A DNA stretch of 64,000 nucleotides from Actinomycetales bacterium (GTDB lineage Bacteria > Actinomycetota > Actinomycetes > S36-B12): positions 1 through 64,000 of the forward strand of contig JAGWXF010000006.1 of NCBI GenBank assembly GCA_018970025.1, written 5' to 3'. Numbering within the stretch: the stretch's first letter is position 1; every line of letters starts with the position of its first letter. Shown here piece after piece: positions 14,127-19,208 of this stretch. Below the pieces are notes generated by a model, which saw only the letters and a program-made list of their open reading frames with translations, was not told the origin of the DNA and did not search any database. The position numbers and the translations under genes are program-made.

Positions 14127-16456
<2,330 letters not shown>

Positions 16457-17446
16457 CCTCCAGGCTGGACACTGCCGTCACCCCGGCGGGCAGGCTGCCG
16501 AACCAGCCAGGCCCGCCGATCAGGATGGTCGGCGTCGGCCGATAGTTCGGCAGGCCGGCGAGGCTGGCGGCATCGGCAGAGCCGGGGATCTGCGCCCACA
16601 GGAGCACCGCTGCCGGCCCAGTGCGCCGGACGGCCTCCTCCAGGGCGGTCAGCGGCAGTCGCTCCCCGAGCAGGCGGGCCGAGACCCCCTCCTCGGCGAG
16701 GGCAGCGGCGACCGCCACCAGGGGGAGCATGTGCAGCTCCTCCTGGGCACAGGCCAGGAGCACTGCGCGCGAGCTCACCGGGGCCTGAAGGTTTCTCGCG
16801 GCGGCACTGAGCGAGGCCGTCACAGCGCCACTGAGGAGATGCTCGACCTCGATCCCGTTCCCGCTCGCCTCCCAGCGCTCCCCAACGCCGACGAGGACGG
16901 GGACGATGAGGTGATCCCACGTCCAGATCACCCCATGCCTGCTGATGCTGTCGTCCATGATCGCCGAGCAGGCATGGGCGTCCAGGCTCAAGGCAGCCCG
17001 GCCAAGGCCCCGGACCGCTGGCTCGGCGCCCGGCAGGGCGATCACCCGGCCCCCGCCGTGGCGCGGCTCTGCTGCGTCGGCGGTGGACGTCTCAGCGGTG
17101 GGACGGAGAAAGGAGACGGGCACCAGCGGCTCGCGTCCCTCAACCGGATCCGCGGCCAGGGCTTGACGGGCGGCATCAGCCGGTGGGACCCCCTCGATCA
17201 CCAGGCGGCGCATGTGGTGCAGTCGGGCGAGATCCTCGTGGGTATAGCGCCGATGGCTGCCGCTGGGGTGCTCAGAGGGCCCGAGGCCGTACCGGCGGTC
17301 CCACGTCCGCAGCGTCGCGGGCGCGACGCCCAGTTGCCGGGCCACCGCGGACACCGTGAGCCCGATGGGGCTGGCGGGATCGGGGGTGGCTGGCATTGCG
17401 ACATTGTGGGGGTCTGGGCGCTTGAACGCATTTCGACCGCTGGGTA

Positions 17447-17476
17447 TTGACCAATCTATGAAACGTTTTGTAGTGT
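17447..17476 (+). promoter_or_regulatory. Putative whiD promoter with MerR-style dyad in the spacer
   Basis: TTGACC (17447-17452), an 18-nt spacer, then TAGTGT (17471-17476), ending 29 nt before the whiD start. Between the boxes lies the dyad CTA-NN-AAACGTTT-NN-TAG at 17456-17473, with only two of nine base pairs broken. A dyad centred between -35 and -10 with a long spacer is the geometry of MerR-regulated promoters, and a MerR-type gene diverges from this spot. AATCTA at 17453-17458 could be the -10 (TAGATT) of the opposite promoter. Confidence 0.5.
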
Positions 17477-17505
17477 TCGGGAAGTACGCACATCGGAGGT
17501 CAGTC

Positions 17506-17814
17506 ATGGCAGATGTATCGCGACTCCCCGGCCCCAACGCCGACTTCTGGGACTGGCAGCTCGACGCTGCCTGCCGCGGCGAGGATCCGAATGCCTTCTT
17601 CCACCCAGAGGGCGAGCGCGGCCCCGCCCGAGCGGCCCGCGAGAAGGCCGCCAAGGCCATCTGCGCCGCCTGCCCGGTCGTGCGCGAGTGCGCCCTGCAT
17701 GCACTCGCCGTACGCGAGCCGTACGGCATCTGGGGCGGCCTCTCCGAGGATGATCGCGAGGCGATCTACCGCCGTGATCGCAAGGCAAACCGGGTCATAG
17801 CCGCCGTCTCCTAA
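17506..17814 (+). CDS. whiD: WhiD/WhiB3-type iron-sulfur transcription factor
   Basis: 102-aa Wbl-family protein. Four cysteines (23, 53, 56, 62) are placed to hold a 4Fe-4S cluster, followed by the turn GIWGG (74-78) and a basic C-terminal stretch RRDRKANR. The N-terminus MADVSRLPGPNADFWDWQL matches the WhiD/WhiB3 subfamily. These proteins bind the primary sigma factor and act in sporulation (Streptomyces WhiD) or redox and nutrient responses (mycobacterial WhiB3). The ATG at 17506 is chosen for GGAGGT 5 nt upstream and because it gives the conserved N-terminus. It is divergent from the MerR/B12 regulator, with a shared control region. Confidence 0.95.
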   Translation: MADVSRLPGPNADFWDWQLDAACRGEDPNAFFHPEGERGPARAAREKAAKAICAACPVVRECALHALAVREPYGIWGGLSEDDREAIYRRDRKANRVIAAVS

Positions 17815-17957: not shown

Positions 17958-19208
17958 ATGGCAGAGCCGGCCGACCATGCGGCAGCCCCACGAAGGGCAC
18001 GCCGTCGCAGCCGACCGTCGCACGCCATTCGCAACGACGCGCTGATGCAGGCGCGGGCGCTGGAGGTGCTCAGTGCCATCGGGTGGGATGCACTGTCCAT
18101 CAACCGCGTCGCGAAGGCGTCCGGCCTGACCAGCGGGCCCGTGCTGAACCGCTATCCCGACAAGGGTGCCCTCGCCCTGGACCTGTGGCAGCGGGAGGGC
18201 TTGCCGGCCCTCACCGACGCTCTCGAGGCGTGCCTGACGGCCGCCCTATCGCCCGAACCGTCGGCCCGGAGCGAGGCCGTCTTCACCGAAGCCATGCGTC
18301 GATTCGTGCAGCCGTCGATGCAGATCTCCGCCGGCGTCGAGCTCGCCCTCGGATGCCGCTTCGACCCAGTGCTCGGCCCGCAGGTCACCGATGCCCTGTC
18401 AGCCTGGCTGGCGGATCGCTGCCTGCCCGACCGCCACGGCCGGGAGGAGACCGGCGCGAGCCAGGCCGCCGCCATCATCGTCTGGGCGATGGGCCTGGTG
18501 ATGTTCGCCAACCGCCCATGGATTGACGAGATGGACATCACCCCCGCCCTCAGCCGGGCCTTCCAGGCGCTCCAGCGGCCGGCTCCCATCCGGCCCGTCC
18601 CAGTGCGCGATGCCGCCTACCTGCGTGCGTCACCGTTCGACACCGGAGATCCTCGACTGGACGAGATCATGGACGCGGTGCTGGAGACCGTTGCCCGAGT
18701 CGGCTACCAGCGCACCAGGCTGCGCGATGTGGCCCAGGCTGGTGGGATGAGCGAGGGCTTCCTCTTCTCCAGGTTTCCTACCAAGCTCGATCTCTTCCTC
18801 GCCGTGACCGAGAGCTACTACGCCCAGGCCTATCAGGATTCCCTGGCCTACCAGCAGGCCGTAGCAGACGAGCACGGGCAGGCCATAGCCGAGGCCGCGA
18901 TGTGGCGGGAGTACCTGAATCCGGCGATCGCAGACCGGCAGTCCCTCGGCGTCGAGACCGACCGGCTGAGCCGGTACGACCAGCGCATGCAGGACTTCAC
19001 GTTCGACCAGGACTCGACGGTGCTGCAGGCGCAGCTCGCCGGCACCGATCCGATGCACCGGCCACGCCAGATCGGGTACGTGCACCTGGACTTCGCCACC
19101 GGGCACGGGCTTGCGATCGTCGGACTGCTCCTGCCGAAGGCGTGGGACTTGCCCTTCAACGTCGTCACGGAGCCGTACCTGCAAGCCCTGCCGGAAGGCC
19201 CGCCATGA
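17958..19208 (+). CDS. Regulator with two TetR-type DNA-binding domains
   Basis: 416 aa, about twice the usual TetR length. A first TetR_N helix-turn-helix is at about 24-76 (MQARALEVLSAIGWDALSINRVAKASGLTSGPV...RYPDKGAL). An all-helical middle follows, then a second TetR_N unit at about 232-283 (LDEIMDAVLETVARVGYQRTRLRDVAQAGGMSEGFLFSRFPTKLDLF) and another ligand-type helical region. So it looks like a tandem duplication or fusion of two regulators. A longer in-frame start at 17862 exists; ATG 17958 is preferred because GAGG precedes it and the upstream residues look non-conserved. Ligand and targets are unknown. It converges on groEL across a strong terminator. Confidence 0.8.
   Translation: MAEPADHAAAPRRARRRSRPSHAIRNDALMQARALEVLSAIGWDALSINRVAKASGLTSGPVLNRYPDKGALALDLWQREGLPALTDALEACLTAALSPEPSARSEAVFTEAMRRFVQPSMQISAGVELALGCRFDPVLGPQVTDALSAWLADRCLPDRHGREETGASQAAAIIVWAMGLVMFANRPWIDEMDITPALSRAFQALQRPAPIRPVPVRDAAYLRASPFDTGDPRLDEIMDAVLETVARVGYQRTRLRDVAQAGGMSEGFLFSRFPTKLDLFLAVTESYYAQAYQDSLAYQQAVADEHGQAIAEAAMWREYLNPAIADRQSLGVETDRLSRYDQRMQDFTFDQDSTVLQAQLAGTDPMHRPRQIGYVHLDFATGHGLAIVGLLLPKAWDLPFNVVTEPYLQALPEGPP

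Follow-up and report, generated by a model that had tools for sequence, protein, structure and literature searches.

Classical MerR operators are dyads centred in an over-long promoter spacer of 19–20 bp. CarH and class I LitR are the closest described regulators to the one considered here, and two reports give their signature and operator rules (PMC9304148, PMC8156234): CarH operators are tandem 11 bp repeats that include the -35 hexamer, and the B12-binding motif of CarH/class I LitR proteins is D/ExHx2G/P-x41-SxT/V-x22-27-GG. The CarH proteins of Thermus, Bacillus and Myxococcus, which are repressors and use adenosylcobalamin as photoreceptor, combine a MerR domain that carries RxWxRRY, a four-helix bundle with GxxWx9EH and a B12-binding fold with an axial-ligand histidine, and their targets are carotenoid genes. 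In Streptomyces the gene of the B12/MerR regulator LitR lies next to one that encodes a transcription-initiation factor, LitS, which is an ECF sigma factor. Proteins of the Wbl class are described as binding sigma region 4 at the -35 (PMC6282962), and those of the WhiD class as binding the principal sigma factor (PMC6282962, PMC7363131). Heterotrophic freshwater actinobacteria are described as altering gene expression in light (PMC8591293). Among the titles and abstracts listed in literature searches for such a link, whose coverage excludes most subscription journals, none ties a B12/MerR regulator to a whiB-type gene.

Organization of the whiD promoter region

The window (the whole stretch of 64,000 nucleotides analysed) carries a whiD orthologue and, divergent from it, a gene for a CarH/LitR-like MerR regulator (Table 1). 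The encoded WhiD has the Whib domain, four cysteines and the G[VI]WGG motif (here GIWGG) of the Wbl class, and is of the same Fe-S protein class as WhiB3/WhiD of Mycobacterium and Streptomyces. Its ATG is conserved, relatives share a MADxSRLPG start, and groEL and guaB are neighbours of whiD in many relatives as they are at the window locus. The interval between whiD and groEL holds a gene (17958-19208, + strand) for a 416 amino acid protein with two TetR_N matches, like a fused TetR pair. When whiD loci are compared, the -35 hexamer is kept and a TATAGT/TAGAGT-like -10 follows after a spacer of 17–18 nt; the recurrence of both hexamers in relatives supports the reading of TTGACC/TAGTGT as a promoter.

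Table 1. Features of the whiD control region (positions in the window)
Feature	Position	Strand	Basis or remark
CarH/LitR-like MerR regulator (325 aa) that includes a B12-binding region	16419..17396	-	Pfam, profile, predicted fold, motifs
Divergent intergenic region common to both genes, 109 nt	17397..17505	.	Sequence
22 bp box TTGAMCAACYTWTGRMGCGNTT, proposed CarH/LitR-type operator	17447..17468	+	-35 plus most of spacer; conserved
-35 hexamer TTGACC	17447..17452	+	Read from sequence; conserved in relatives
Repeat unit 1, TTGACCAATCT, contains -35 TTGACC	17447..17457	+	Unit matrix p = 0.0014, partly circular
Spacer, 18 nt	17453-17470	+	Read from sequence
Dyad of the original prediction, CTATGAAACGTTTTGTAG	17456..17473	.	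Exact letters; judged chance symmetry of box
Repeat unit 2, ATGAAACGTTT	17458..17468	+	Unit matrix p = 0.0011, partly circular; offset-11 similarity P = 0.007
-10 hexamer TAGTGT	17471..17476	+	Sequence; similar hexamers at 17-18 nt in relatives
GGAGG, whiD ribosome-binding sequence	17495..17499	+	Sequence
whiD orthologue, 102 aa, Wbl Fe-S regulator	17506..17814	+	Pfam Whib E 5.5e-26; ATG at 17506

A conserved 22 bp box spans the -35 and most of the spacer

The comparison started from 29 whiD loci of the window's family and order, 28 of which fit a loose box pattern (L015 is the exception) and were used to train a box matrix. In the profile of these 28 loci, 22 positions are strongly conserved from the -35 into the spacer and the upstream sequence is nearly flat, with a weaker conserved element, TTGTTCA. 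Many relatives have that element 10 nt before the -35, and in some it is the box repeated in inverted orientation on the side of the MerR gene; no inverted copy on that side is evident in the window. Pooling the order loci, the 80 named loci (the best of 452 candidates) and 38 class loci (n = 147, some loci being met twice) gave a site score of at least 10 in 140, from which 106 distinct 28-mers were obtained. A second box in direct orientation occurs downstream of the first, near the whiD start codon, upstream of whiD at L109 and L111, and likewise in G041 and G050, where the two are 37 nt apart.

The original prediction was of an 18 bp dyad exactly between the two hexamers, in the arrangement used by MerR regulators; in the classical mechanism a MerR dimer, bound at such a dyad in an over-long spacer, activates by untwisting the promoter. 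The letters pair as claimed and the positions are correct, but the dyad's last three bases fall inside the -10. CTATGAAACGTTTTGTAG has no second match in the genome at up to 2 mismatches, and its axis (self-similarity 0.369) is the best inverted axis among those with at least 9 pairs. As a symmetry, however, it is not beyond chance: the window holds 10 18-mers of the same geometry (3+4 pairs, 2 nt gaps), and ten simulated windows average 8.8. Full 3+4 pairing is found in 1/106 distinct homologous sites, that one being the window's own, and mean pairing across the homologous sites is 3.02 of 7 against 2.98 after column shuffling. Column permutation gives P = 0.077 for the dyad axis and P = 0.745 over all inverted axes tested, and no covariation was found among the 106 sites at the dyad axis or at an offset of 11. 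The spacers, moreover, are of ordinary length (17–18 nt), the box starts at the -35, and self-similarity peaks at a direct offset of 11 bp, none of which is the long-spacer arrangement of a classical MerR promoter. We consider that mechanism very improbable and reject a classical MerR dyad, because relatives do not share the symmetry, because of the permutation P and because such pairings are as common in the window as chance predicts. At loci with whiD and the MerR gene likewise divergent, the site is conserved and the dyad is not; by this comparison the conserved unit is the 22 bp box. The palindromic core AAACGTTT is one variant beside AAGCGGTT, GGCGCGGTT and similar sequences. A LacI-like interpretation of this core was set aside because the AAGCG and GGCGCG variants are commoner.

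The box occurs with whiD and an adjacent MerR gene

A MerR gene lies within 1.5 kb of whiD in 27 of the 29 order loci and 1.7 kb away in a 28th; the remaining locus (G026) has neither a MerR match at E 1e-30 nor a box. Among the 39 genomes of the order set, eight lack a MerR gene at E 1e-30 and seven of these also lack a whiD orthologue, absence being judged by matches no better than those of paralogs. In G017 and G037 the MerR gene is at a contig end and no whiD was found. A class sample of 148 genomes, searched with a whiD match threshold of about 121 bits, yielded 73 genomes with a match; the MerR gene is within 3 kb in 41 of the 73, and divergent in all 41.

The upstream regions of 70 genes were then scored: 66 of the 73 class loci, the other seven having been covered in the order, together with four weaker whiD-like genes that have the MerR gene beside them. 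A box scoring above 10 is present in 32/38 whiD genes with an adjacent MerR gene and in 0/32 without one (highest score 6.6), counts that are not independent events, the genomes being related. The 32 non-adjacent genes include those of genomes with good whiD orthologues, and the six other MerR-adjacent loci have no box by score. This distribution supports the part of the original prediction that put a regulatory site in the spacer.

A profile search of genome contigs gave 452 confirmed candidates among named relatives, of which the best 80 were kept. Each of these loci has a whiD match in the fetched DNA, and 74 have at least one box by the strict pattern. The strict box is missing at L091, L098, L109, L110, L136 and L141, five of which show near-matches by eye, that of L141 being weaker. 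These 80 loci are mostly from uncultured actinobacteria, many labelled Candidatus Nanopelagicales, and the cultured genera among them are Motilibacter, Pseudonocardia, Saccharothrix, Umezawaea and Kineosporia. At L091 whiD and the MerR gene are 3.8 kb apart, and it is whiD that the near-match box accompanies. In family f14, loci from seven of the eight genomes with a MerR match were fetched (L242-L248); 7/7 retain the MerR gene next to groEL but lack whiD, and their site scores do not exceed 1.0. The protein must therefore have other sites there. Judged from all these loci, the presence of the box depends on whiD and the MerR gene together.

Such a pattern bears on who binds the box. It is unlikely, in our estimate, that the box serves another factor, or results from the action of WhiD, together with the housekeeping sigma factor, at the whiD promoter, and that the MerR gene is just a frequent neighbour. 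The loss of the box with whiD in f14 although the MerR gene stays would fit that account, as would the binding of Wbl proteins to sigma region 4 at the -35 described in PMC6282962. The account has difficulty with the absence of the box from the class-sample whiD genes that lack an adjacent MerR gene, which disfavours WhiD autoregulation in particular. Conservation also runs downstream of the -35 into the spacer, and the same kind of 11 bp repeat precedes an ECF sigma gene in family f22, where the best whiD match is weak.

The neighbouring protein resembles CarH

The window's MerR protein exceeds the Pfam cut-offs for MerR_1 (E 4.3e-16) and B12-binding_2 and falls below that for B12-binding (27.7 vs 32.1). 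A profile built from 20 of the 27 order proteins has CarH 5c8d as its best PDB sequence match (E 2.6e-30), and the best PDB fold matches of an AlphaFold model (mean pLDDT 86, pTM 0.64, linker disordered) are CarH 5c8d/5c8e; the whole-chain rmsd to CarH is large because the domains are oriented differently. The NCBIfam CarH equivalog cut-off is not reached (78.5 vs 400 bits), so that on sequence the protein is CarH-like but falls outside that curated equivalog. By a loose pattern, an RxWxRRY-like recognition helix is present in 27/27 order proteins and in 80/80 named proteins (the best 80 of 452). In the B12-binding motif of the window protein the D/ExHx2G/P part reads ELHMLP with H222, and the SxT/V part reads LLWAQ; the pattern ExHxxG/P occurs in 23/27 order proteins and 67/80 named ones (best 80 of 452). 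The genome also encodes a PduO-type cobalamin adenosyltransferase.

The four-helix bundle signature of the window protein is W175...E185 H186, with a glutamate after the tryptophan where many CarH proteins have histidine. GxxWx9EH is intact in 27/27 order proteins, the window's included, and in 71/80 named proteins (best 80 of 452); most loci of the nine named proteins without the intact signature keep the box. In the divergent pairs at L123, L129, L130, L139, L146, L151, L152 and L154 it is the tryptophan or the glutamate that is missing. Some of these deficient members may no longer sense light, with the box still in place. The same protein on the same operator could be a B12 sensor without light sensing or, alternatively, a light-triggered activator of whiD, a pair of readings that we regard together as rather improbable; the nine deficient proteins favour the light-blind form, against which stands the unbroken signature of the order.

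Proposed direct 11 bp repeats within the box

Across the 106 distinct sites the direct offset of 11 gives the highest self-similarity (0.380) of offsets 3–18, with a permutation P of 0.007 when the offset is preset and 0.097 if any offset from 8 to 15 may win. Clearer repeats are seen in relatives. Three loci of one genus (L180, L183, L184) have TTGCACAASTT-WTGAACAAGTT before whiD, with a period scan that puts 11 on top in two of them and not in L184. In family f22, 4/4 fetched loci have the repeat ATGAATARNTT-TTGAATARRTT in front of an ECF sigma gene that neighbours the MerR gene; a matrix-free scan puts period 11 on top in all four, tied with 12 in one, and the single-locus shuffle P values are 0.04, 0.14, 0.18 and 0.00. 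Periods other than 11 came top at L259 and L260. A unit matrix built from the f22 sites and those of L180/L183/L184 gives good scores on the 106 boxes in registers 0 and 11 only, a test that is partly circular because the whiD matrix had served to choose the sites it was trained on.

Taken with the published operator rules, the box is best read, by sequence comparison, as two tandem 11 bp direct repeats. So read, it would share with CarH operators 11 bp direct repeats that include the -35; it differs in having two clear units, the second (WTGRMGCGNTT) deviating from the published TnnACA core. At the core position L180/L183/L184 have TGCACA/TGAACA, many first units in relatives have TGAACA, and the window units have TGACCA and TGAAAC.

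Proposed control of whiD

We think it likely that the box is a CarH/LitR-type operator in the whiD promoter, bound by the neighbouring MerR/B12 protein, with repression in the dark and relief by light or by lack of adenosylcobalamin (AdoCbl). Comparison shows that the box is conserved and depends on whiD and the MerR gene together, that the protein is CarH-like in its sequence and in its predicted fold, and that the repeat units resemble those beside another clade member. We infer that the protein binds the box directly, carries B12, responds to light and acts as a repressor, not as an activator triggered by light. The operator would sit in a housekeeping-sigma promoter, where in the dark an AdoCbl-bound MerR/B12 oligomer would read two (perhaps three) tandem 11 bp direct repeats and, lying over the -35 and the spacer, would keep RNA polymerase out. 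Its release, by light or when adenosylcobalamin is lacking, would allow whiD to be made. WhiD would then relay the signal in the place held by the ECF sigma factor LitS in Streptomyces. The WhiD class binds the principal sigma factor, and WhiD may therefore be a functional parallel of LitS. The tie between whiD and the divergent MerR/B12 protein, also part of the original prediction, is probably real, given how the box follows the adjacent gene and given that a clade relative (in f22) is linked to a repeat of this kind in front of a different gene.

Repression in the dark is the most likely mode because CarH works in this way and the position of the box fits. Activation keeps some likelihood because Streptomyces LitR is described as promoting litS transcription in light (PMC12705666), but the overlap of the box with the -35 and the spacer is a blocking position. 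The arrangement resembles LitR-LitS in the adjoining of a B12/MerR regulator and a gene for a transcription-initiation factor, and departs from it in that the neighbour here is a divergent Wbl Fe-S gene and the repeats overlap the -35. From CarH it departs in its target, which here would be whiD.

A wider formulation, to which we give somewhat less than even weight, is that a B12 photoreceptor directly controls WhiD through 11 bp promoter repeats across many actinobacterial families, uncultured lake bacteria, Motilibacter and Saccharothrix among them, with a fasciclin lipoprotein and a transporter perhaps included in one family, and that WhiD replaces LitS as the amplifier and adds a redox/NO gate. 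If whiD is indeed wired to a photoreceptor-type regulator, the pair would supply a sensor-operator-output chain for the light response, join light sensing to the redox/developmental network of actinobacterial Wbl proteins and place a major actinobacterial regulator, WhiD, under light or B12 control. Cultured relatives in which such a chain would be directly testable include Motilibacter, Saccharothrix, Pseudonocardia and Kineosporia.

Other sites in the genome and in relatives

A scan of the window's own genome with up to 3 mismatches found the whiD box only, and a wider regulon there was set aside on that result. Among 20 fetched sites, those outside whiD promoters are mostly in coding frames.

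At the f22 loci (L249-L252) a CarH-like gene is followed by an ECF sigma gene, a LitR-LitS-like pair; the near-perfect 11 bp direct repeat lies 39–52 nt before the sigma start, and the ECF gene product has sigma-70 domains in the one locus tested.

Boxes also precede genes for fasciclin-domain lipoproteins at L235 and L236 (family f10) and at L267, L268 and L288 (genus g5). When 30 fasciclin loci in relatives were scanned, box-like upstream sites were found in three, all of one genus and in a variant form; at L271 a fourth site also exceeds 10, but it is far off and in the opposite orientation. The g5 fasciclin form has TTGAAGAA and GCGATTGCATCC as common elements and may represent another promoter class. 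The strong boxes of f10 are those of the two fasciclin genes and three MFS transporter copies (L232, L233, L234), the latter being an identical 30 nt box at the transporter gene start with flanks that differ.
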